DNA from: Pseudodesulfovibrio sp. | GTDB taxonomy: Bacteria > Desulfobacterota > Desulfovibrionia > Desulfovibrionales > Desulfovibrionaceae | DNA length: 64,000 bases | Reading direction: 5' to 3' | NCBI RefSeq assembly: GCF_028692895.1 | Contig: NZ_JAQUWN010000009.1 | Span: 1-64,000 of the forward strand | In this document: positions 38,505 through 50,937 of the stretch, piece by piece | Layout: every line of letters begins with the position of its first letter | Numbering within the stretch: the stretch's first letter is position 1 | Program-made: the position numbers and the translations under genes | The notes under the pieces: generated by a model | The model's database searches: none | The model's input: only the letters and a program-made list of their open reading frames with translations | Told to the model about the DNA's origin: nothing

Positions 38505-40592
38505 TTATCCTTTGGAAACCGTTATGAAGTGCTCCTGCATGGCCACGGCCCCGCCGCCCTTGTCGTACTTGCGGATGCCCCTGGGCATCAGCAGGTTGTC
38601 GGCCGCGCCCTTGCCTATGGCGCGGGACTCGACGGGCAGGGTGTGCCCGAACCCGTGGAGCATGAACACGCATTCGGGGTGGACGAAGTCCGTGACGAAG
38701 GCCTTGATCTTGGCCGAGTAGCCGTTGCCGGTCACGGTGACGTACTCGTCGTTCTCAATGCCCATTGCGGCGGCCTTGGCGGTGTTGATCCAAAGCACGT
38801 TCTCGGGCTTGCGCTCGAAGAGCAGGGCGTTGTTGACCGTGTGGCCCTGGGTGTGCAGGGCGCAGCGGCCGAAGGTGATGCGGAACGAGCCCTCGGGCGG
38901 CCGTTCGGGCGAGACGTAGGGCTTGAGGGAGGGCAGGCCGTCCGCTTCGAGCTTGGCGTCGATGACCTGAATCTTGCCGGAGGGGGTCTTGAAGGTCCCT
39001 TCCTTGACCGGCTTGAGCAGCGGTTCGCTGGCCAGGGTCACGATGCCCTTCTTGTCGAAGTCGGCGATGGTCACGCCGGTGCCTTCCAACTGGAAGTTCC
39101 AGATGTCCTCGATCTTGTCGAAGGCGAGCTCCTTGAGACCCATGCGCCTCGCCAGGCCCGCGTAGATTTCCCAGATGGCCTTGGTGTCGTAGACCGGCTC
39201 GACGGCCCGCTTGCGAATCTGGAAGGCGGGCTTGGCGCCGTTCTTGGTCATGATGATCTCGTCGCGCTCCAGGTACGGGGAGATGGGCAGAACCACGTCC
39301 GCGTACCAGGCCGTGTCGGACCAGGTGAAGGTGGCGGCCACGATGAGTTCGATGTTCTCCCACATCTTCAGGACGTCTTTCTTGTCCGGGAAGGCCATGA
39401 GCGGGTCGTGGCGGTTCACGATGTAGGCCTTGACCGGGTAGGGCGATTCGCTTTCGGCGGCCTCGTAGGCCAGGTTGACCAGGCCGGGGCCCGCGTCATA
39501 GTGCTTGCGGCCTTCCATCCAGCCCACGCCGTCGGCGCGGCGGCCTTCGGGCTTCGGGTAGAGGTTCATGAAGCTCTTGAGCCCCTTGGCCCCCACGTCG
39601 CCCGGTTTGACCATCAGCGGCAGCCCGCCCTTGGCGCCGACGGAGCCCAGGAGCGAGTTGATGAGGTAGATGGTCCGGCTCATGTCGAAGGAGTCGGTGT
39701 AGCGCGCGGTCATCCAGCCCGGGTGCCAGAGCACGCTGGGGGCGGCCTCGGCGAGCTGGCGGCAGAAGTCGCGGATGGCCTCGGCCTTGATGCCGGTTTC
39801 GCGCTCGGCCCATTCGGGCGAGTACCCGGCCACGAAGTCCTTCAGTTGGTCGAACCCGTCCATCCAGTCGGCCACGAACTTCTTGTCGTAGAGCTCCTCT
39901 TCGATGAGGGTGTGGATGACGGCCAGGTTGAAGGCGTAGTCCGTGCCGGGGCGGATCATGTAGAAGTTGTCCGCCTTGGTGGCCGGAACGTTGGCCCGGA
40001 TGTCGATGACCGAGAGCTTGCACCCCTTGGCCATGGCGTTCAGGGTGTTGTTGACCTCGGCCACGTTGATGGCCTCGAAGATGTTGCGCTGCTGGAGCAC
40101 GATGTGCTTGGCGTTCTTGAGGTCGTAGGCCACGCCCTTGCGCCCGAATCCGAACACGGAAAGGGCGGCGTTCTGCACGTTGCGCGCGCAGGCGGCGTCA
40201 TGGTTGTTGTAATTGGACGTGCCGATGCCGCGCAGGAAGGCGCGGTAGAAATCTCGGAACGGACCGCCGCGGTCGGAGAAGAGCACGGAGTCCCTGCCGT
40301 ACTCTTTCTGGATGGCGGTGAGTTTTTCGGCGACGTAGTCCAGGGCTTCGTCCCAGGACACGGATTTCCATTTTCCTTCGCCACGTGCGCCCTGGCGGAT
40401 CATCGGACCCTGCGGGCGTTCCTTGTCGTAGGTGAGTGCGGTTCCCGCGGCTCCGCGCGGACACAGCGCCCCCTCGATCCCGGCGGCATGGGGATTCCCC
40501 TGGATGTACTCGACCCTGCCATCCACGACTTCGACCTGGATGGGACAGCGCACGGTGCACATGCCGCATATGCTGTAAACGTATTCCTTCAT
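38505..40592 (-). CDS. Molybdopterin oxidoreductase, thiosulfate/polysulfide-reductase-like catalytic subunit, cytosolic
   Basis: 695 aa from the ATG at 40592 (GGAGG upstream). Cys9, Cys12, Cys16 and Cys44 (ICGMCTVRCPI...LCPRGAAG) would hold the N-terminal 4Fe-4S cluster. Cys135 in HDAACARNVQ aligns with the Mo ligand of PsrA/PhsA-type enzymes. No Tat signal precedes it, so it should act in the cytosol, unlike PsrA or PhsA. Its likely electron partner is the divergently encoded four-cluster ferredoxin at 40884. The substrate is not known; a role in thiosulfate, polysulfide or aldehyde chemistry would be a guess. Confidence 0.88.
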   Translation of the reverse strand: MKEYVYSICGMCTVRCPIQVEVVDGRVEYIQGNPHAAGIEGALCPRGAAGTALTYDKERPQGPMIRQGARGEGKWKSVSWDEALDYVAEKLTAIQKEYGRDSVLFSDRGGPFRDFYRAFLRGIGTSNYNNHDAACARNVQNAALSVFGFGRKGVAYDLKNAKHIVLQQRNIFEAINVAEVNNTLNAMAKGCKLSVIDIRANVPATKADNFYMIRPGTDYAFNLAVIHTLIEEELYDKKFVADWMDGFDQLKDFVAGYSPEWAERETGIKAEAIRDFCRQLAEAAPSVLWHPGWMTARYTDSFDMSRTIYLINSLLGSVGAKGGLPLMVKPGDVGAKGLKSFMNLYPKPEGRRADGVGWMEGRKHYDAGPGLVNLAYEAAESESPYPVKAYIVNRHDPLMAFPDKKDVLKMWENIELIVAATFTWSDTAWYADVVLPISPYLERDEIIMTKNGAKPAFQIRKRAVEPVYDTKAIWEIYAGLARRMGLKELAFDKIEDIWNFQLEGTGVTIADFDKKGIVTLASEPLLKPVKEGTFKTPSGKIQVIDAKLEADGLPSLKPYVSPERPPEGSFRITFGRCALHTQGHTVNNALLFERKPENVLWINTAKAAAMGIENDEYVTVTGNGYSAKIKAFVTDFVHPECVFMLHGFGHTLPVESRAIGKGAADNLLMPRGIRKYDKGGGAVAMQEHFITVSKG

Positions 40593-40705
40593 CAACTCCT
40601 CCCTGATTGGTTCCCGATCCGTCGGGAATAAGGTGGACTGCGCGACTTTTCTGATGACTGGCACGCTAGCAGCGCGCGTCAACACATCGCAATGATTAGC
40701 CCTGA

Positions 40706-40883: not shown

Positions 40884-41333
40884 ATGGCCATTTACAAGAT
40901 GAAATTTGACAAGAGCCGGTGCATCGCCTGCGACGCCTGTCTCATTCACTGCAAGGTGAAGAACAAGGTGCCCGAGGGGCTTAGCCTCAATCACCTCTTT
41001 GTCGAAGGCCCCATGGCCGGCAAGGATGGCAGGCCCACCGCCAAGCTTAAGTACCAGAACTGTCGCCACTGCAAGAATCCGCAGTGCGTTGACGCCTGTC
41101 CCACCGGCGCCCTGTATCAGCGCGAGGACGGCCTGGTCCTGTTGCATGCGGACAAATGCGACGGCTGCAAGGCCTGCATCGAGGCGTGTCCCTGGAGCGT
41201 GCCGGTGTTCAACGAGGCCACCGGCAAGATCATGAAATGCGATTATTGCGTGGATCGGGTGGATGCCGGCGGCACACCCGCCTGCGTTACGGGCTGTACG
41301 GCCAAGGCGTTGACCTTCGTCCGGCCCGAGTAG
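40884..41333 (+). CDS. Four-cluster 4Fe-4S electron transfer protein (DmsB/PhsB type)
   Basis: 149 aa with four Cys clusters: CIACDACLIHCK, NCRHCKNPQCVDACP, CDGCKACIEACP and CDYCVD...CVTGC. This is the arrangement of beta subunits of DMSO-reductase-family enzymes. AGGTGG precedes the ATG. The divergent molybdopterin subunit lacks a beta gene on its own strand, so this is the likely partner. It leads a unit with the TSUP permease. Confidence 0.9.
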   Translation: MAIYKMKFDKSRCIACDACLIHCKVKNKVPEGLSLNHLFVEGPMAGKDGRPTAKLKYQNCRHCKNPQCVDACPTGALYQREDGLVLLHADKCDGCKACIEACPWSVPVFNEATGKIMKCDYCVDRVDAGGTPACVTGCTAKALTFVRPE

Positions 41334-41410: not shown

Positions 41411-42538
41411 GTGTTACGTTCCAAGAAAATGCTTCTGATCCTGGCCTTGCTGGCCGCCGTCTGCCTTATGGCGGTACCGGCGCTGGCCGACCAGCTGGCC
41501 GACGCCATCGCCGAGGCCAACCCGCAGGGTGAGCCCGGCTATCTGGGCATTCCCGGCGGTCCGCAGCTCAACGTCATGATCGGCTTCGTCTGGGCGATCT
41601 GGGTTGGCTGGATCTTCTCCACCGTCGGCGCGTTCGGCGGCATCATGGCCGGTGTCGGCCACATCACCATCTACGGCCTCGGCGACTACGCCAAGAGCTT
41701 CAAGAAAACCATGAAGCTCAACAAGATCGTCACCGACTCCATCCGCGTGTCCAACCAGTGGCTGGTGGGCTGCTCCGCGGCGCTTTCTTCCTTCAACTAC
41801 TACCGTGCCGGCCGCCTGGTGCTGCCCCTGGCCATCGCCCTGGCCATCGGCTCCGTGTCCGGCTCCCTGCTGGTGCCCATTCTGACCGCCGGCAAGATCA
41901 GCCTGAAGGCCTACCTGGGCTACTTCGGTCTCTTCGTCCTGTTCCTGGGCTGCTACCTGTTCTACCAGACCACCCCCAAGGGTCAGGCTGGTCAGAAGGC
42001 CGCCAAGCAGGCCGCCGCCGCCTTCCAGAAGTCCGTGAAGGAGCAGCAGGCCGGTGGCCATGTCGACATGGCCGAGATGGGCGTCAAGGTCCAGAAGTTC
42101 ACCCCCACCGCCTGTGAATTCACCTTCTTCGGCGTGGAGTTCAGCTTCAATCCGCTGATTCCCGTTATCGGCGGCTTCGTCATCGCGGCCCTGGCCTCCT
42201 TCCTGGGCGTCGGCGGCGGCTTCCTGCTGGTGCCGTTCCTGACCTCCGTGGCCGGTCTGCCCATGTACCTGGTCGCCGGCACCTCCGCCCTGGCGGTGCT
42301 CGTCGGCATGATCAGCTCCATCTTCTCCTACATGGTCATCAAGCACTCCCCGGTGGAGTGGAGCCTGATCGGCGCCGAACTCGTGGGCATCGTCATCGGT
42401 TCCATCATCGGACCCAAGACCTCCAAGTTCATCCCGGACAAGGTGCTGAAGTACATCTTCATCATCCTGGCCGCCTACGTGGGCATCCGCTACACCACCA
42501 AGGGCTTCCTGGGCCAGTCCTGGCTGCCCCCCTTCTAG
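41411..42538 (+). CDS. TSUP (TauE/SafE) family anion permease with extended N-terminus
   Basis: 375 aa from a GTG with GGAGG upstream. A signal-like helix (residues 5-26) precedes a region of several membrane segments. The TSUP core is FLGVGGGFLLVPFLTSVAGL and TSALAVLVGMISSIFSYMV. A charged loop of about 50 residues (190-235) separates the two halves. The family moves sulfite, sulfonates or related C2 anions. The link with a molybdoenzyme suggests a sulfur oxyanion; inference. Confidence 0.85.
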   Translation: MLRSKKMLLILALLAAVCLMAVPALADQLADAIAEANPQGEPGYLGIPGGPQLNVMIGFVWAIWVGWIFSTVGAFGGIMAGVGHITIYGLGDYAKSFKKTMKLNKIVTDSIRVSNQWLVGCSAALSSFNYYRAGRLVLPLAIALAIGSVSGSLLVPILTAGKISLKAYLGYFGLFVLFLGCYLFYQTTPKGQAGQKAAKQAAAAFQKSVKEQQAGGHVDMAEMGVKVQKFTPTACEFTFFGVEFSFNPLIPVIGGFVIAALASFLGVGGGFLLVPFLTSVAGLPMYLVAGTSALAVLVGMISSIFSYMVIKHSPVEWSLIGAELVGIVIGSIIGPKTSKFIPDKVLKYIFIILAAYVGIRYTTKGFLGQSWLPPF

Positions 42539-42621: not shown

Positions 42622-43233
42622 ATGACCGCTCAAGCGATCTTTCAATTTCTCGACCCCTGGCTGATCTGGTCCTTCCGCCTGACCGCCAATCCCTACCTGG
42701 GATTCGCCCTGGGCATCTTCTGGATTTGCCTGGCGGCCACCGTTCTCGGCGAGCTGTGCATGGCCGGGGTCTACTTCCTGAACGCCAAGCATTTCGGGAA
42801 GATGAACAAGGACATGGTGCACAACCACAACCTGTCGGTGCAGGCCCTCGGCGTGCGGAACAAGACGGCCTGGAAGGCCTGCAACTCCATCGCCAACGAG
42901 GCCTTCGGCAAGAATTTCTTTGCCCATGTCGCCCTTTTCGCGTCCTCCGTCTGGATGGTCCCCTTCGGGCTGGGCTGGGTCTACTACCGCTTCGGCGCGG
43001 TGGACTTCAATGTCCCGTTCCTCGGCTCGGTGGGCCCGGCCTTCTACTTCCTCCCGCTCTACATCCTGACCCGGGTCCTGTTCTGCAAGGCCAAGCCGTG
43101 GATGCCGGTCTTCCGGACCATCAAGCGGAAGATCAAGGAGAACGAGGGAGACGAGGAAATGATGTTCTTTTCCGATCTGGCAAAGCCGACGTCCTCGGCC
43201 CCGGACAAGCAGCCCGCGGCGGGCAGCGTCTGA
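42622..43233 (+). CDS. Unknown membrane protein, three or four spans
   Basis: 203 aa, ATG at 42622 with AGGA upstream. Hydrophobic segments lie at about 26-52 (LGFALGIFWICLAATVLGEL), 97-120 (FAHVALFASSVWMVPFGLGW) and 133-152 (GPAFYFLPLYILTRVLFC). Between the first two is a polar loop with several His and Asn (KDMVHNHNLSVQALGV). The C-terminal 45 residues are charged and cytosolic. No family is recognised. It follows the permease and is closed by a strong terminator, so it is likely part of the same unit. Confidence 0.8.
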   Translation: MTAQAIFQFLDPWLIWSFRLTANPYLGFALGIFWICLAATVLGELCMAGVYFLNAKHFGKMNKDMVHNHNLSVQALGVRNKTAWKACNSIANEAFGKNFFAHVALFASSVWMVPFGLGWVYYRFGAVDFNVPFLGSVGPAFYFLPLYILTRVLFCKAKPWMPVFRTIKRKIKENEGDEEMMFFSDLAKPTSSAPDKQPAAGSV

Positions 43234-43315: not shown

Positions 43316-43831
43316 CTACTCGCCCCGGGCGGCAGCCACGTCGCGGACGAATCCCTCCAGGTCCGAGGGGCCGAGCAGGTAGTGGCGCTCGGCGGTCTTG
43401 ATGCAGAGCACGTCCGGGCGGTTGGTCACGATCACGGCTTCCGCGCCGTTCTTGAGCTCCACCAGGCCGGACTGGTATCCGGCGAACTGCATGATCTTTC
43501 GGCTCTTGGCCACGGCCAGGCCGTCGTCGAGCTTCAGGTTGCCCGGAAAGACCTTTTCCACCGACGCCCAGGGGATGACCGCGCTGGCGAACGGCGGGGC
43601 GGCCAGCAGGAGGCCCTCGTCGGCCACGGTGATGGCCGCCCGCTTGGGGTTGATGTAGAGCATGTACCAGTAGAGCATGGCCAGCGGCCCGGCGATGGCC
43701 GCCAGGCTGATGCCGCTCCAGGTCAGGCCCGACCGGAAGCACCAGGCCACGGCGGCGGTGACGCCGACCACGAACACGAGCAGCAGGACGGGGACGATGG
43801 GTTTCATGGGTATCTTGTAGGTGCTTGCCAT
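43316..43831 (-). CDS. Membrane-anchored bacterial PH-domain-like protein
   Basis: 171 aa. Two N-terminal membrane segments (PVLLLVFVVGVTAAVAWCF; ISLAAIAGPLAMLYWYML) are followed by a cytosolic domain of about 100 residues with the pattern ITVADEGLLLAAP...IPWASVEKVFPG and VIVTNRPDVLCI. This is the layout of bPH_5-type proteins. Function unknown. Confidence 0.7.
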   Translation of the reverse strand: MASTYKIPMKPIVPVLLLVFVVGVTAAVAWCFRSGLTWSGISLAAIAGPLAMLYWYMLYINPKRAAITVADEGLLLAAPPFASAVIPWASVEKVFPGNLKLDDGLAVAKSRKIMQFAGYQSGLVELKNGAEAVIVTNRPDVLCIKTAERHYLLGPSDLEGFVRDVAAARGE

Positions 43832-43973: not shown

Positions 43974-44936
43974 ATGGTGGCGGCGACGGGCAAGGTCGGA
44001 AACGGATGGATGGGGCGGATCGCCCGGTGGGCGGGCATGGTCCTGCTCCTGGCGGCGGCCCTTTCCTGCGCCGGGTGCGGCGACGACGAGCCCGTGGTCA
44101 AGGTCGACCTGAACAAGCGCGAGCGGCTCATGGCTCCCAAGCCCCTGGAGGCCATCACCTACGCCTACCTGCCGCAGTACTCCCACACCATTTCCTTCCA
44201 GCGACATCGCGCCCTGCTCAAGTACCTGCGCACCGCCACCGGCCTGCCGCTCCGGCAGATTTTCCCGGACACCTTCGACGAGCACATCAAGATGGTGCAG
44301 CGCGGCGAGATCGACATTTCCTACTCCAACCCCTTCGTCTACCTCCAGTTGGCCAAGGTCGGGGCCACGGCCTTCGCCCGCAGCGTGGAGCCCTCGGGCA
44401 AGCCCGACTTCCGGGGGCAGGTCATCTGCCGTAGCGACAACCCGACCATCAAGTCCATCGCCGACTGCAAGGGCAAGCGCTGGATCGCCGTGGACCCGGG
44501 CTCGGCGGGCGGCTACCTCTTCCCCCTGGGCCTCTTCTACGACCACGGCATCCACCTGCACGACTTCGCCGAGGTGGATTTCGCTCCGGGGCCCGGCGGC
44601 AAGCAGGAGAAGGTCGTGCTGGCCGTCCATGCCGGGGCCTACGACATCGGCACCATCCGCAAGGGCACCCTGGACGTGGTGGCCCAGAAGATTCACCGCG
44701 ACGACATCCGCATCCTGGCGGAGACGCGGCCGTACCCCGGCTGGGTCTACTCGGCCCGCCAGGGGCTGGACCCCGAGGTGATCCGGGCCGTGGCCAGCGC
44801 CATGTTCGCCCTGGACCCGGACAATCCGGACCAGGCCGCCATCCTCGGGGCCGCGGGCATGCGGCGCATCATCCCGGCGCGCGACGAGGACTACGAACCT
44901 GTACGCGAGCTCGTGGAAAAGCTCGGCATCCAGTAG
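43974..44936 (+). CDS. PhnD-like substrate-binding lipoprotein
   Basis: 320 aa. Lipobox LSCAGC with Cys35. The chain then follows the phosphate/phosphite/phosphonate-binding family: AYLPQYSHTISFQRHRALLK, RGEIDISYSNPFVYLQLAKV, DPGSAGGYLFPLGL and HAGAYDIGTIRKGTLD. No ABC permease or ATPase gene is near, so it probably serves as a sensor rather than a transporter part. It leads a five-gene operon and sits nine bases before a histidine kinase, which it may feed with ligand information. Ligand unknown. Confidence 0.88.
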   Translation: MVAATGKVGNGWMGRIARWAGMVLLLAAALSCAGCGDDEPVVKVDLNKRERLMAPKPLEAITYAYLPQYSHTISFQRHRALLKYLRTATGLPLRQIFPDTFDEHIKMVQRGEIDISYSNPFVYLQLAKVGATAFARSVEPSGKPDFRGQVICRSDNPTIKSIADCKGKRWIAVDPGSAGGYLFPLGLFYDHGIHLHDFAEVDFAPGPGGKQEKVVLAVHAGAYDIGTIRKGTLDVVAQKIHRDDIRILAETRPYPGWVYSARQGLDPEVIRAVASAMFALDPDNPDQAAILGAAGMRRIIPARDEDYEPVRELVEKLGIQ

Positions 44937-44945
44937 GCGTCTCCC

Positions 44946-47036
44946 ATGCGGTTCCTCTCCACCCTCAAGTTCCGGACCAAGCTCAACCTGGGCATCTGCT
45001 GCATCCTCGTGGTCATGGCGGTGCTGCTGCTGACCCTGGTGGGGAACATGAGCGCCAAGCTGCTCATCGAGGAGAACAAGAAGCGCGGCTCGGCACTGGC
45101 CCAGAGCTTGGCTGCCCGCGCCGTGGAGCCCATCCTGGCCCAGGACTTCCTGCGCCTCAAGAACATGGTGGACGAGCAGGTGGCCATGGGCGACGTGGTC
45201 TACGTCTTCGTCCAGAACAACCGGGGGCACGTCCTGGCCCATACCTTTCAGAAGGGGTTCCCCTTGGACCTCGTCAAGGCCAACGGGGTGGCGGACGGGG
45301 ACACGGTCCACATCCAGCTCCTGGCCAACGGGGCCGAGCGCATCTACGATTTCGCCTCGCCGGTCAGGGTGGGCGTCGACCGGCTGGGCACGGTCCGCGT
45401 GGGCCTCTCCAAGACGCGCATCAACGCCAGCGTGCACCGGCAGTTGACCACCATGGCCGGGCTCTTTGCCGGGGCCCTGTTCCTGACCACCATCATGGGC
45501 ACGCTCTTCGCCCGCCAGGTCACCCGGCGGCTGGCCACCCTGCGCGAGCACGCCGAGGCCATGCTCATGGGCAACCTGGACACCCAGTCCGGCCCGGACG
45601 TGGGCACCCACTGCTGGGAGCGGATGAAGTGCGGGCTCAAGTCCTGCCCGGCCTACGGCGACACGCGGCGGCGCTGCTGGTACATCGCCGGGACCCTCTG
45701 TCCGGACTGCGGGGACACCAAGATCGGCGACCGCCAATCCTCCTGCCAGCTTTGCCGCGTCTACCGCGAGAGCGCGGGGGACGAGCTCCAGGACCTGGCC
45801 GAGACCTTCGACGTCATGGCCATATCGCTCAAGACCCACATCGAGGAGCTGCGCTCGGCCGAACGCAGCCTGCGCGACCAGGAACGGCTCATGCGCACCA
45901 TCCTCGACGCCACGCCGGACCGCGTCTCCCTGGTGGACACCACCATGCGCTACCAGGGCGCCAACCTGAGCTTCGCGGCGTCGGTGGGCATGGAGCTCTC
46001 AGAGCTCAAGGGCAAGACCGACTTCGACCTGTTCGAGGAGACCGTGGCCGAGGAGCGGCACATGGCCGCCCGCGACATCCTCCAGTCCGGCAGGCGGCTG
46101 GACACCCAGTTGCGTGTGGTCGAGGAGTCTGTCGAGCGTTGGTACCACGTGGTCTGCATCCCGGTGTACGAGGAGGACGGGCGCATCGGCGGCCTGCTCC
46201 GGACCGACCGCGACATCACCGACCTCAAGGGGTACGAGAAGCAGCTCATCCAGGCCCAGAAGATGGAATCCCTGGGTATGCTGGCCGGGGGCGTGGCCCA
46301 CGAGATCAACACCCCGCTGGGCATCATCCTGGGCTATTCCCAGCTCCTGCAGGAGGACGTCAAGGAGGGCAGCCAGATCCACCAGGACCTGGGCATCATC
46401 GAGAAGCAGGCCAAGGTCTGCAAGAAGATCGTGGCCGACCTCCTCGGCTTCTCCCGACAGACAGACTCGGCCAAGCGCGAGATGTGCTTCAACAACTCGG
46501 TCATGGAGGCCGTGAGCCTGGTGCGCCACACCTTCAAGCTCGACCGGGTGGAGATCGTCACCGAGCTGGACGACCGCTTCCCGGTCATCTACGGCGACCC
46601 GGAAAAGCTCAAGCAGGTCTGGATCAACCTGCTCAACAACAGCCGCGACGCCATGCTGAGACGGGGCGGCGCCATCGTCATCCGCACCCGGCTGGACTCG
46701 CCCTCGGGCATCGTCTCCCTGTGGGTGGCGGACACGGGCGAGGGCATCCCGGCCGACAAGCTGGGCAAGATTTTCGATCCGTTCTACAGCACCAAGCCCG
46801 TTGGCCGGGGCACCGGCCTCGGGCTGTCCGTCTCGTTCGGGATCATCGAGGACCACGGCGGCCAGATCATGGCCACCAGCCCTGTCCCGGCGAGCTTCAA
46901 CTTCCCCCTGTCCGCGGAGGGCGAGGAGCGGGGCCCGGGCACGCTGTTCGAGGTCGACCTGCCGCTCGACCATGCCGACACGGGGGAAAACACCAAGGCG
47001 AACAAGCCGGAAACGGGGGTTACCGGCAATGAATAA
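44946..47036 (+). CDS. Sensor histidine kinase with cysteine-rich (two-CW-like) insert
   Basis: 696 aa. A membrane helix at about 16-36, a periplasmic Cache-like sensor (40-165), a second helix (170-188) and a HAMP. Between 220 and 272 lies a Cys-rich module with Cys 223, 229, 234, 244, 252, 255, 267 and 270 (CWERMKCGLKSCPAYG, CWYIAG, CPDCGD, CQLC). PAS is at 312-430. The phospho-His is His452 (GGVAHEINTPLGIILGYS), and the ATPase domain has NLLNNSRDAM and GTGLGLSVSFGI. The insert probably binds a metal or cluster; inference. Confidence 0.92.
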   Translation: MRFLSTLKFRTKLNLGICCILVVMAVLLLTLVGNMSAKLLIEENKKRGSALAQSLAARAVEPILAQDFLRLKNMVDEQVAMGDVVYVFVQNNRGHVLAHTFQKGFPLDLVKANGVADGDTVHIQLLANGAERIYDFASPVRVGVDRLGTVRVGLSKTRINASVHRQLTTMAGLFAGALFLTTIMGTLFARQVTRRLATLREHAEAMLMGNLDTQSGPDVGTHCWERMKCGLKSCPAYGDTRRRCWYIAGTLCPDCGDTKIGDRQSSCQLCRVYRESAGDELQDLAETFDVMAISLKTHIEELRSAERSLRDQERLMRTILDATPDRVSLVDTTMRYQGANLSFAASVGMELSELKGKTDFDLFEETVAEERHMAARDILQSGRRLDTQLRVVEESVERWYHVVCIPVYEEDGRIGGLLRTDRDITDLKGYEKQLIQAQKMESLGMLAGGVAHEINTPLGIILGYSQLLQEDVKEGSQIHQDLGIIEKQAKVCKKIVADLLGFSRQTDSAKREMCFNNSVMEAVSLVRHTFKLDRVEIVTELDDRFPVIYGDPEKLKQVWINLLNNSRDAMLRRGGAIVIRTRLDSPSGIVSLWVADTGEGIPADKLGKIFDPFYSTKPVGRGTGLGLSVSFGIIEDHGGQIMATSPVPASFNFPLSAEGEERGPGTLFEVDLPLDHADTGENTKANKPETGVTGNE

Positions 47037-47047
47037 GGAGTGTTATC

Positions 47048-47407
47048 ATGGCTCATATCATCGTATTGGACGACATCTCGGACGCCGGGATGCTGGTGAG
47101 GCGCATTCTGGAGCGCAAGGGACATCAGGTGACCGCCTTCACCGAGGAGGAGGACGCCCTGGAATTCGTCCGCAAGACGCCCGTGGACATGGCCATCCTC
47201 GACATCAAGCTCAAGAAGATGACCGGCGTCGAAGTGCTCGAGGAACTCAAGAAGGAGCGGCCGGGGATCAAGGCGATCATGCTCACCGGCTACCCCACCC
47301 TGGAGACAGCCAGGGACGCCCTGCGCCTGGGGGCCCAGGAGTACTGTGTGAAACCGATCAACAAGGATGAATTGGAGACCAAGGTCGCTGAAGTTCTCGG
47401 GGAGTAG
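47048..47407 (+). CDS. Single-domain response regulator
   Basis: 119 aa receiver only. The acidic pair (VLDD), phospho-acceptor Asp52 (AILDIKLKKMTG), Thr (IMLTGY) and Lys (CVKPINK) are all present. There is no output domain. It lies 11 bases after the kinase and three before the PEP-synthase-like gene, so signal output is probably by protein contact with one of the operon partners. Confidence 0.92.
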   Translation: MAHIIVLDDISDAGMLVRRILERKGHQVTAFTEEEDALEFVRKTPVDMAILDIKLKKMTGVEVLEELKKERPGIKAIMLTGYPTLETARDALRLGAQEYCVKPINKDELETKVAEVLGE

Positions 47408-47410
47408 TTC

Positions 47411-49855
47411 ATGCATGTTAGTCAGCTCTTCAAGCACTGGACATACCAGGTCTTTTCGCCGGGCACCCTGCTGAGGCGAAAGTACGAGGCCTTCAAGTCG
47501 CTGCTCAGGCACGACGCCATCGCGCTGGAGCTCATCGCCGATCTGGAGGAGCTCTTCTACGGCGAGGTCCTGGCCGACCGGCAGCGGGCCAACTGGCTGG
47601 CCGCCCGGCTGTCCAAGTCCGTGAAGACCATGGCCGGTCAGCTCGTGGAGATGAATCCGTCGAAATTCATGGATCTGCCGGAGTATTTCCGGAAGATCGA
47701 CTTTTACGTGCGCATGGCCCTGGAGCTGGAGCAGCCCGAGGTCGGCCCGCCGTACATCCTCTCCCTGGGGGACGCCGCGGCCATGCCCCGGCTGGCGGGG
47801 GGCAAGGCCTCCAACCTGGGCCGCGTGCTCGGGGTGGGGGGCGTGCCCGTGCCGCCGGGTTTCGTCATCACGGCCAACGCCTTCAACTACCTGGTGGACT
47901 ACAACGAGCTGGGCGCGGAAATCGAAAGCCGCCTCCGGCAGATGGTGGTGGGCGACCGGAATCTCCTGGCCGGGCTGACCGCCGAGATGCAGGAGCTGAT
48001 CCTGGCCGCCGAGGTGCCCGAGGAAATAGCCCGGGGCATCCGCTTCGCCGTGTCCGAGATCATCGAGGACGACGACGCCCTTATCGCCGTGCGCTCCAGC
48101 GCCCTGGCCGAGGACGGCGAAATCTCGTTCGCCGGGCAGTACGCCAGCGAGCTGAACGTTCAGCCCAACGACGTGCTGGAGGCGTACAAGCGCGTGCTGG
48201 CTGGCAAGTATTGTCCGCGCGCCGTGTCCTACCGCATCTCCAACGGCCTGACGGACGCGGACACGGCCATGGCCATCCTGGTCATCCCCATGGTGGACGC
48301 CGACAACGCGGGCGTGGTCTATTCCATGGACCCGGACTGCCACGGCCGGGACGCCATCGGCGTCTACGGCGTGCGCGGCCTGGGCGACCGGCTGGTGGAC
48401 GGCTCGGCCTCGCCCGCCAAGGCCGTGCTGACCCGCGAGGTCGAGCCCCGACTGGCCGAGGGATGCACCCCGGACGAAGGCGGGCTGCCGAGTGAGACGA
48501 CCCTGTGCGAACTGGGGCGGCTGGCCATGAAGCTGGAGAAGGCTCTGGGCGGCCCCCAGGACATCGAGTGGGCCGAGGATGTCACCGGCCGCCTCTTCAT
48601 CCTCCAGACGCGGCCCCTCCAACTGGAGCGGGACAAGGCGGCCGAGGAGCACGCCCCGGTGGCGGCCGTTCCCCTGGCCGAGGGGTTCGAGCGCGCCTCG
48701 GCTGGCGCGGGCTGCGGCGAGATCTACTACGCCCCCACCGGCGCGGAGATCGCCCGCATCCCGGACGGCGCGGTGGTGGTCACGCCCACCCTCAAACCGT
48801 CGCTTTTGACCTTCATCGGCAACATGAGCGGGGTCATCTCGCGTACGGGCAGCCGGGCCAGCCATTTCGCCTCCGTGGCCCGCGAGTACGGCGTGCCTGT
48901 GCTGGTGGGCGAGCTGGACCCGCCGCTGGCCCCCGGCAGGCTGGTCACGGTGGACGGCTCCACCGGCACCATCCACGACGGATGCATGGAGTCCATCCTG
49001 ACCCGCTCCCGCGAGGGCGGGCGGGTCTCGGGCCGGGTGCTCAAGCAGTATGAGAAGGTCGTGCCGCTGACGGTCAGGCTCAACCTGACCGACCCGAGGG
49101 CCGACAACTTCACCCCCGAGGGATGCCGGTCCATGCACGACGTGGTCCGGTTCTGCCATGAGAAGAGCGTGGGCGAGATGTTCTCCCTGGTGGACCGCAA
49201 GGGGCGCGGCATGGGCGCGGCCCGGCGGCTCAAGACCCACCTGCCGCTGGTCATGTATCTCCTGGATCTGGGCGAGGGCCTCTTCCCCACCGCGGCAGAC
49301 GGCAAGCTGGTGGAGGCGGCGGACATCAAGAGCCGCCCCATGTGGGCCCTTTGGTACGGGCTTTCGGACGGCCGGGTCAAATGGCCCAACACCCTGACCC
49401 ACATGGACTGGGAGGAGTTCGACAAGATGTCCGGCGGCATCTTCAGCTTCGACTCCAAGCTCCTCGCCAGCTACGGCCTCATCAGCGAGGACTACCTCCA
49501 CCTGATGATCCGCTTCGGCTACCACTTCTCGGTGGTGGACTCCATCTGCGGGCCGGACGACGGGGCCAACTACATCAACTTCCGCTTCAAGGGCGGCGGG
49601 GCCGGGTTCGACCAGCGGCTGCTGCGCCTTCTGTTCATTCAGCGCGTGCTGGAGCGGTACGGGTTCGAAACCGCCACCCGGGGCGACATGATCGACGCCA
49701 AGGTCGGGCGCATGAGCGAGAACGAGACCCGGCGGCTGCTGGCCCGCCTGGGCTACCTGATGGCCGTGACCCGGCTCATGGACATGCGCATGGACGACGA
49801 GGATCAGGTGGAGGCCGAGGTGGAGCGGTTCATGACGGAAGCGGAGAACAGATGA
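47411..49855 (+). CDS. PEP-synthase-like protein: ATP-grasp plus phosphohistidine domain, no PEP barrel
   Basis: 814 aa. Residues 1-115 are a helical N-terminal domain. Residues 125-405 are the ATP-grasp domain of PEP synthases (GGKASNLGRVL, AVRSSALAEDGEISFAGQYA, PQDIEWAED). Residues 440-515 are the swivelling phosphohistidine domain with His485 (SRTGSRASHFASVAREYGVP). The TIM-barrel PEP-binding domain (motifs like TEHMF, GGGMGG) is absent. Instead a 290-residue C-terminal domain with no recognised family is present (MWALWYGLSDGRVKWPNTLT, RFKGGGAGFDQRLLRLLFIQ). It may phosphorylate a protein or small molecule other than pyruvate. Confidence 0.85.
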   Translation: MHVSQLFKHWTYQVFSPGTLLRRKYEAFKSLLRHDAIALELIADLEELFYGEVLADRQRANWLAARLSKSVKTMAGQLVEMNPSKFMDLPEYFRKIDFYVRMALELEQPEVGPPYILSLGDAAAMPRLAGGKASNLGRVLGVGGVPVPPGFVITANAFNYLVDYNELGAEIESRLRQMVVGDRNLLAGLTAEMQELILAAEVPEEIARGIRFAVSEIIEDDDALIAVRSSALAEDGEISFAGQYASELNVQPNDVLEAYKRVLAGKYCPRAVSYRISNGLTDADTAMAILVIPMVDADNAGVVYSMDPDCHGRDAIGVYGVRGLGDRLVDGSASPAKAVLTREVEPRLAEGCTPDEGGLPSETTLCELGRLAMKLEKALGGPQDIEWAEDVTGRLFILQTRPLQLERDKAAEEHAPVAAVPLAEGFERASAGAGCGEIYYAPTGAEIARIPDGAVVVTPTLKPSLLTFIGNMSGVISRTGSRASHFASVAREYGVPVLVGELDPPLAPGRLVTVDGSTGTIHDGCMESILTRSREGGRVSGRVLKQYEKVVPLTVRLNLTDPRADNFTPEGCRSMHDVVRFCHEKSVGEMFSLVDRKGRGMGAARRLKTHLPLVMYLLDLGEGLFPTAADGKLVEAADIKSRPMWALWYGLSDGRVKWPNTLTHMDWEEFDKMSGGIFSFDSKLLASYGLISEDYLHLMIRFGYHFSVVDSICGPDDGANYINFRFKGGGAGFDQRLLRLLFIQRVLERYGFETATRGDMIDAKVGRMSENETRRLLARLGYLMAVTRLMDMRMDDEDQVEAEVERFMTEAENR

Positions 49856-50937
49856 TGCTGTGCAAGGATAAGCCCGCCTACCAGGTGACCTGGGTCACGG
49901 ACCAGCTCGGCGTGGGCCAGGCGCCCATGAGCTATCCCCAGCTCGACGCCATCCGCGCCCAGGGCGTGGACGCCATCCTCAACCTGTGCGGCGAGTTCTG
50001 CGACCTGCACGAGATCGAGGCGGACGCCGGGTTCGAGGTGCACTACCTGCCGCTCAACGACGAGGAGGCCCCGAGCCTCATCGAGCTGGAAAAGGCCCTG
50101 TCCTGGCTGGACGAGGCCATCTACCTGGGCAAGAAGGTGCTCATCCACTGCCGCCACGGCATCGGCCGCACCGGCACGGTGCTCAACGCCTACCTCCTGC
50201 GGCGCGGGCTGGGCCACAAGCTGGCCGGGCGCGCCCTCAAGAAGCTCAAGAGCAAGCCCGCCAACTTCGTCCAGTGGCGCACGGTGCGCAACTACGGCAA
50301 GCAGTCCGGTCGGCTGACCGTGCGCGAGCCGTCACTGGAGTTCAAGCGGCTGGTGGACCTTTCGCCGTTCTTCAACGACTACGCAGAGCTCGTCCAGCGC
50401 GCCAACGAGCGCATGGGCGACTCCCTCAAGGGCAGGGCGTGCGGCCTGGACAACGTCCAGTGCTGCTCCACGCCGGTCCGGCTTACCCTGGTGGAGGCCG
50501 TGCACCTGACCCACTCCATCAACAAGGTCCTGGACAGCGACGCCCGCGTGGCCCTCATCGAGCGGGCCGTGGATGTCGCCCTCAAGGAGCGCCAAGCCGT
50601 GCACGACCTGGGCGAGGCCGGGGAGAACACCGAGTACTGCCTGTCCGAGGCCGGGACCGTCTGTCCCCTGCTTGAGGCAGGGCGGTGCCGCCTCTTCGAC
50701 TGCCGCCCGCTTCAGTGCCGGACCTTCGGGCTGGAGGAGGCCGGCGGCGACGTCCTGTGGCGCGAGATGCTGACCCCGGCCCTGGACAAGATTTCCGCCG
50801 AGATATGGTTCGCCTACACCGGCTCCATGGGGACCGAGAGCCTGCCGCACTTTCCCCTGCCGGACGTGGTCTCCGGCAAGTTCATGGAGACCGTGTTCAA
50901 GATCATGATGCAGCAGGGACTGGCCAAGAGCGCCTAG
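49852..50937 (+). CDS. Dual-specificity phosphatase fused to a YkgJ-type cysteine cluster domain
   Basis: 361 aa. The ATG at 49852 overlaps the upstream stop (ATGA). Residues 10-160 are a dual-specificity phosphatase: the loop HCRHGIGRTG has catalytic Cys100 and Arg106, with a candidate general acid Asp70. Residues 195-310 carry the Cys pattern of YkgJ/CxxCxxCC domains (ACGLDNVQCC... CPLLEAGRCRLFDCRPLQCR). The fusion is unusual. It would remove phosphate from Ser/Thr/Tyr or His-linked targets and hold a metal or cluster. It is the last gene of the operon. Confidence 0.88.
   Translation: MMLCKDKPAYQVTWVTDQLGVGQAPMSYPQLDAIRAQGVDAILNLCGEFCDLHEIEADAGFEVHYLPLNDEEAPSLIELEKALSWLDEAIYLGKKVLIHCRHGIGRTGTVLNAYLLRRGLGHKLAGRALKKLKSKPANFVQWRTVRNYGKQSGRLTVREPSLEFKRLVDLSPFFNDYAELVQRANERMGDSLKGRACGLDNVQCCSTPVRLTLVEAVHLTHSINKVLDSDARVALIERAVDVALKERQAVHDLGEAGENTEYCLSEAGTVCPLLEAGRCRLFDCRPLQCRTFGLEEAGGDVLWREMLTPALDKISAEIWFAYTGSMGTESLPHFPLPDVVSGKFMETVFKIMMQQGLAKSA

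Follow-up and report, generated by a model that had tools for sequence, protein, structure and literature searches.

A conserved five-gene operon of Pseudodesulfovibrio with a dikinase-like protein and a phosphatase matches the Desulfovibrio nitrate cluster

The operon and its neighbouring genes

The window analyzed here is a stretch of 64,000 nucleotides from Pseudodesulfovibrio sp., whose genome comprises 3.69 Mb. Between positions 43974 and 50937 it carries five open reading frames, all on the forward strand, which we call A to E according to their order (Table 1). A preliminary description of this DNA had presented them as a closely spaced operon, and all five reading frames and their spacing were confirmed: A and B, B and C, and C and D are separated by 9, 11, and 3 bases, respectively, and D and E overlap by the 4 bases ATGA (49852-49855). 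The description located the five genes correctly and left out the linked genes for a TauE-type permease, a 203-aa membrane protein and PhsA- and PhsB-like proteins. The PhsB-like, TauE, and 203-aa genes lie on one strand, 77 and 83 bases apart.

Table 1. Positions of the operon genes, of selected domains, and of linked genes in the window
Feature	Position	Strand	Evidence
Divergently encoded PhsA-like molybdopterin oxidoreductase; predicted catalytic subunit of a thiosulfate reductase	38505..40685	-	
PhsB/DmsB-like 4Fe-4S protein	40884..41333	+	77 bases upstream of tauE
TauE/SafE-type permease	41411..42538	+	PF01925 (3.6e-26); DVU0251 match by order and annotation
203-aa membrane protein, no Pfam match; probably corresponds to DVU0250	42622..43233	+	
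A, periplasmic binding protein of the PhnD/PtxB type and probable lipoprotein; predicted oxyanion sensor	43974..44936	+	PF12974; PDB relatives
B, membrane histidine kinase	44946..47036	+	sCache_3, HAMP, 8-Cys insert, PAS, HisKA (H452), HATPase
Insert of B with eight Cys (residues 223-270), two-CW-like	45612..45755	+	NF045718
C, single-domain receiver, 119 aa, without output domain	47048..47407	+	Response_reg
D, 814-aa dikinase-like protein	47411..49855	+	PPDK_N, PEP-utilizers; no PF02896
New C-terminal domain of D	48998..49837	+	Alignments; invariant residue set
E, dual-specificity phosphatase fused to YkgJ-like Cys domain	49852..50937	+	HCRHGIGRT; C100/R106

In a Pfam profile search, A matches the Phosphonate-bd family (PF12974, E=1.9e-59). 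Its N-terminus is lipoprotein-like and its PDB relatives are HtxB, PtxB, ArrX, and AioX, which supports the earlier assignment of A as a putative periplasmic oxyanion-binding protein of this type. In relatives, A stays beside the kinase gene B. ArrX and AioX act as sensors for kinases (PMC5908839), and the AioX-AioS-AioR and ArrX systems resemble the window in that a binding protein of the PtxB/PhnD family is encoded beside a sensor kinase. In contrast to AioXSR-type systems, which have a DNA-binding response regulator, C is a receiver alone and is followed by the genes D and E.

B contains the Pfam domains sCache_3_2, HAMP, PAS_4, HisKA, and HATPase_c. The insert at residues 223-270 holds exactly eight cysteines, as described before, of which C223, C229, C234, C244, C267, and C270 show conservation of at least 97% over 67 alignment rows. 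Since it resembles the two-CW domain (NF045718, E=2.1e-7), with a score of 31.2 bits below the curated cut-off of 35, this insert is not unprecedented. C consists of one Response_reg domain with the complete phosphorylation set D8, D9, D52, T80, and K102.

E is a DSP phosphatase with the loop HCRHGIGRT, in which H99, C100, G103, G105, R106, and T107 are invariant across 58 rows, and the best fold matches are ShufPTP, Tk-PTP, and VHZ. With the DSP phosphatases Tc-R-P, PTP-SAK, and DSPc it shares the HCxxGxxRT loop and the fold, whereas its apparent fusion to a YkgJ-like Cys domain and its co-encoding with D set it apart. The second half of the reported phosphatase-YkgJ fusion, a CxxCxxCC domain of the PF03692 type, stays below threshold in the window (E=0.042, 15 bits against a cut-off of 23) and matches at E<=0.01 in 14 of the 58 relatives. 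One E homologue (L266) lies in a 14-kb stretch without D.

PhsA (NF012032) is the best NCBIfam match of the divergent oxidoreductase, but the score of 520.8 bits is below the cut-off of 694, so we call the protein PhsA-like only. The sequence of PhsA-like enzymes does not specify the substrate. No twin-arginine motif was seen before the first conserved Cys of the protein as read here, which suggests that the enzyme is cytoplasmic and that its substrate would have to be imported. A bPH_5 bacterial PH-domain gene (43316-43831, reverse strand) precedes the operon in divergent orientation and is nearly confined to this genus. We considered it as the DVU0250 counterpart and rejected it in favor of the 203-aa protein, which fits better in place and length and travels more widely with the cluster.

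The dikinase-like protein D

Apart from PPDK_N (5.5e-66) and PEP-utilizers (1.1e-14), D matches no Pfam domain. The protein is laid out as a helical N-terminus (residues 1-110), an ATP-grasp domain (128-413), a phospho-His domain (430-525), and a new domain (530-809). An alignment of 68 D relatives shows no substitution at G130, K132, R228, D235, E386, Q399, R401, or H485; position 384 holds Asp in 64 sequences and Glu in the other 4, and the catalytic residues align with those of PEP synthase. The ATP-grasp and the phospho-His residue His485 noted previously are therefore retained. Over residues 112-525 the AlphaFold model (mean pLDDT 86.8) can be superposed on rifampin phosphotransferase with Z 36 and on PEP synthase with Z 31. 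D thus appears to be an active-looking dikinase with a different C-terminal end.

That D lacks the PEP-binding barrel and ends in a new domain was borne out as well. A profile search found the barrel (PF02896, PEP-utilizers_C) at two other places in the host genome and gave no match in D or at its genome position. The C-terminal domain of about 280 aa has no Pfam match in the window sequence, and the domains of 22 family members yielded only stray sub-threshold matches in 4 Pfam families. It also has no PDB sequence match, an absence that makes no claim of a new fold. The preliminary description had proposed structure prediction as a check of this part, and the model shows a mixed alpha/beta arrangement that does not follow a (beta-alpha)8 order; its confidence is low at residues 595-601 and 662-678. 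A structure search with the whole model returned matches filled by the ATP-grasp and phospho-His domains. The invariant residues of the domain in our alignments are H576, D577, R580, H583, E584, G703, H705, D710, and R739.

PEP synthase, PPDK, and rifampin phosphotransferase share with D the ATP-grasp, the swivelling phospho-His domain, and all catalytic residues, and D differs from these dikinases by its extra helical N-terminus. Where PEP synthase has the PEP barrel, D has the unclassified C-terminal domain. In rifampin phosphotransferase the rifampin domain follows the ATP-grasp and the phospho-His domain comes last, whereas in D the phospho-His domain directly follows the ATP-grasp and the new domain is last. 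Regulatory phosphorylation of PPS and PPDK takes place on a Thr at position -2 relative to the catalytic His. In D this position is Ala in 65 of 68 relatives.

Conservation of the cluster and its counterpart in Desulfovibrio

Of 20 same-genus loci, 19 carry the genes A-B-C-D-E in this order and on the same strand, and the remaining locus starts at a contig end. Outside the genus we inspected 112 loci picked for matching D or E; 60 of them contain all five genes, 53 also keep the order, and 105 have D and E adjacent. Such an arrangement was seen neither in 20 background stretches nor in 23 paralog loci. The loci share ancestry and some duplicate one genome, so these counts are not independent events. 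This confirms that the five-gene set is a real unit, conserved beyond chance, in line with the earlier view that the genes belong together. A Nitrospiraceae MAG (L136) also carries the complete set.

A-B-C forms a separate inverted block beyond D-E at four loci (L119, L127, L150, and L155), an inverted block of C and B only was found at L107, and at some loci A-B-C is absent from the fetched stretch. Because A-B-C can be inverted elsewhere or absent, D-E is the core and A-B-C a detachable sensor module, a distinction that is new here. The maintenance of the D-E pair as a core module fits a kinase opposed by a phosphatase. When 170 C-terminal domains were placed in a tree, 122 of the 123 D proteins linked to E grouped in one split, together with 6 others, at a low support value of 0.32.

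The linked genes accompany the cluster to different extents. TauE (at least 50% identity) was found at 19/20 same-genus and 42/112 other loci, the 203-aa membrane protein at 19/20 and 39/112, and the PhsB-like protein at 18/20 and 19/112. The PhsA-like protein was detected near the cluster at 2/20 and 12/112 loci, both lower bounds because the fetched stretches often end before phsA. At paralog and background loci none of the four reaches the thresholds. The travel of the cluster with tauE and the 203-aa gene, located after the phsB-like gene in the genus, is likewise new here; this neighborhood lends support to a possible role in thiosulfate use, and the linked genes taken together point to thiosulfate or another small oxyanion. 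tauE is found beside D even where E is missing, as in three Desulfopila/Desulforhopalus loci with the order TauE, membrane protein, D (L083, L085, and L088). The 203-aa protein follows TauE in relatives from several families.

Nitrate is injected into oil reservoirs against sulfide production. Mutants in the gene set that Korte et al. (2014) named the nitrate cluster (DVU0251-DVU0245 and Dde_0597-Dde_0605) escape nitrate (PMC4001038). This cluster encodes TauE, a conserved hypothetical protein, a PtxB-like protein, a kinase, a 360-bp receiver, a PPDK_N/PEP-utilizers protein, and a DSP (PMC4001038). The window has the same order from TauE through the small protein, PtxB-like protein, histidine kinase, receiver, and PPDK_N/PEP-utilizers protein to the DSP phosphatase, and the 119 aa (360 bp) of C are identical in length to the DVU0247 receiver (PMC4001038). 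The operon therefore matches the nitrate cluster by order, domains, and receiver length, and the earlier statement that no system with this set had been described does not hold. The gene set has been known since 2014 by mutant phenotype only; the nitrate cluster study offered no mechanism, domain analysis of the D C-terminus, or phsAB link, and the view taken here is new and wider. In G20, phsAB is located elsewhere (Dde_1076:1075), whereas in the window a PhsAB-like pair adjoins the cluster.

Nitrate resistance arose from mutations in TauE and the small gene and in the genes for the binding protein, the receiver, and the D counterpart, and 100 mM nitrate made no difference to the growth of isolated DvH mutants in DVU0246, 0247, 0250, and 0251 (PMC4001038). 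The DvH phosphatase mutant DVU0245 was inhibited by nitrate like the control and had a pooled fitness of -6.04 (PMC4001038). G20 mutants in all these cluster genes gained fitness in nitrate and were mildly sick on thiosulfate (PMC4001038). The authors suggested a leaky thiosulfate transporter and left the mechanism open (PMC4001038).

A possible phosphotransfer switch and the D family

From the anatomy of the cluster we infer a ligand, a contact between C and D, an acceptor, a direction for each step, and TauE as the controlled target. A would bind a periplasmic oxyanion, most likely thiosulfate or a related sulfur oxyanion mimicked by nitrate, and thereby set the activity of B, which would phosphorylate C. 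As C has no output domain, it probably docks on D, and its phosphorylated form would set the activity of D. D would phosphorylate H485 by its ATP-grasp, and the swivelling phospho-His domain would hand the phosphate on to an acceptor positioned at the C-terminal domain, from which E would strip it again. The balance between D and E may then determine uptake by TauE together with its small membrane partner and so supply the PhsAB-like reductase, which is apparently cytoplasmic. We regard the chances of this chain, from oxyanion sensing to a reversible phosphorylation that governs uptake, as evenly balanced.

Loss of TauE, A, C, or D would close the entry abused by nitrate and loss of E in DvH would not; the lack of resistance in the DvH phosphatase mutant is as expected if E opposes D. 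The position of A-B-C before D-E, or in a separate inverted block nearby, is as expected for a sensor module. Several observations count against the proposed chain. DSP phosphatases usually act on phospho-Ser, -Thr, or -Tyr, and outside the genus most of the fetched stretches show no PhsA-like gene near the cluster. In DvH the annotation marks the kinase DVU0248 as a pseudogene, yet the cluster still matters in that strain, and the G20 phosphatase mutant Dde_0605 scored +2.08 in nitrate, opposite to DvH (PMC4001038). Moreover, G20 phsAB mutants are only slightly impaired in growth on thiosulfate (PMC4215793).

Among other readings of D, we rejected as highly improbable that it is an ordinary PEP synthase relative that serves central metabolism from within the operon: among named families PPS is nearest to D in sequence, but the search that detected two true PEP-utilizers_C members elsewhere in the genome found none in D, the modelled C-terminal half has no (beta-alpha)8 pattern, and the regulatory Thr is replaced. 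We consider it unlikely, though far less so, that D is a metabolic or messenger enzyme whose new domain binds a small molecule, which D would phosphorylate and whose phosphorylated form, acting on TauE or on expression, E would destroy. The extra domain of related dikinases does bind a small acceptor (pyruvate or rifampin), the polar residues among the invariant set (all but G703) would suit a small anionic ligand, and some enzymes of the DSP fold take non-protein substrates, E itself having a sub-threshold PTPlike_phytase match. Yet the D-E core has no conserved neighbor that would belong to a pathway for such a compound, and in the stretches read D paralogs lie near receivers and kinases, not metabolic genes.

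The identity of the ligand could also differ from the one proposed. A tentative alternative, somewhat short of even probability, is that the system handles sulfite, sulfonate, selenate, arsenate, or phosphite and that the thiosulfate link is incidental. It would agree with the nearest solved relatives of A, which bind phosphite, phosphonates, or arsenic oxyanions, and with the presence of sulfite exporters among TauE-family proteins (PMC5840216), whereas the phsB-tauE order in the genus, the PhsA-like partner, and the mild thiosulfate defect of the G20 mutants (PMC4001038) favor thiosulfate.

D belongs to a family of Desulfobacterota proteins with paralogs near receivers, which is new here: the C-terminal domain was found in 78 of 198 sampled genomes, with up to 12 copies each. 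Receiver genes are present at 21 of 23 D paralog loci without E and in 2 of 20 background stretches (Fisher p=5e-8), the paralog stretches of 12-16 kb and background stretches of 12 kb being similar but not identical in length and several paralogs sharing genomes. This suggests that D-type proteins may be partners of two-component systems in general. No fusion of D to a receiver or kinase was present among the ORFs scanned, and our literature searches found no description of receiver-linked PPS-like proteins.

Returning to the proposed phosphotransfer by D, it is conceivable, if somewhat doubtful, that D defines a new class of two-component output in the form of a receiver-controlled dikinase with many copies in Desulfobacterota, whose His is charged from ATP and whose phosphate passes to a new acceptor via the unclassified domain, with the E-linked cluster as the sole subfamily that has a dedicated DSP phosphatase and switches oxyanion uptake. 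For the phenotype shared by mutants in the binding protein, receiver, PEP-synthase-like protein, and permease, the anatomy described here offers a testable chain. The D family is large, its C-terminal domain is absent from Pfam, and it may represent a new way for two-component systems to act; this domain and the link of the family to receivers are the parts most worth following.

Members of the D family vary in arrangement and length. At four loci (L202, L203, L204, and L205) D-type genes stand in tandem, and a separate receiver gene lies between them or next to them. Long D-type ORFs of 1056-1153 aa were found at L242, L247, and L250, and a paralog at L241:3760-9258 reaches 1833 aa. In the long paralogs the C-terminus is extended by about 200 residues that give weak lectin- or 3-keto-disaccharide-hydrolase-like matches, and one of them has about 1000 N-terminal residues without a Pfam match.
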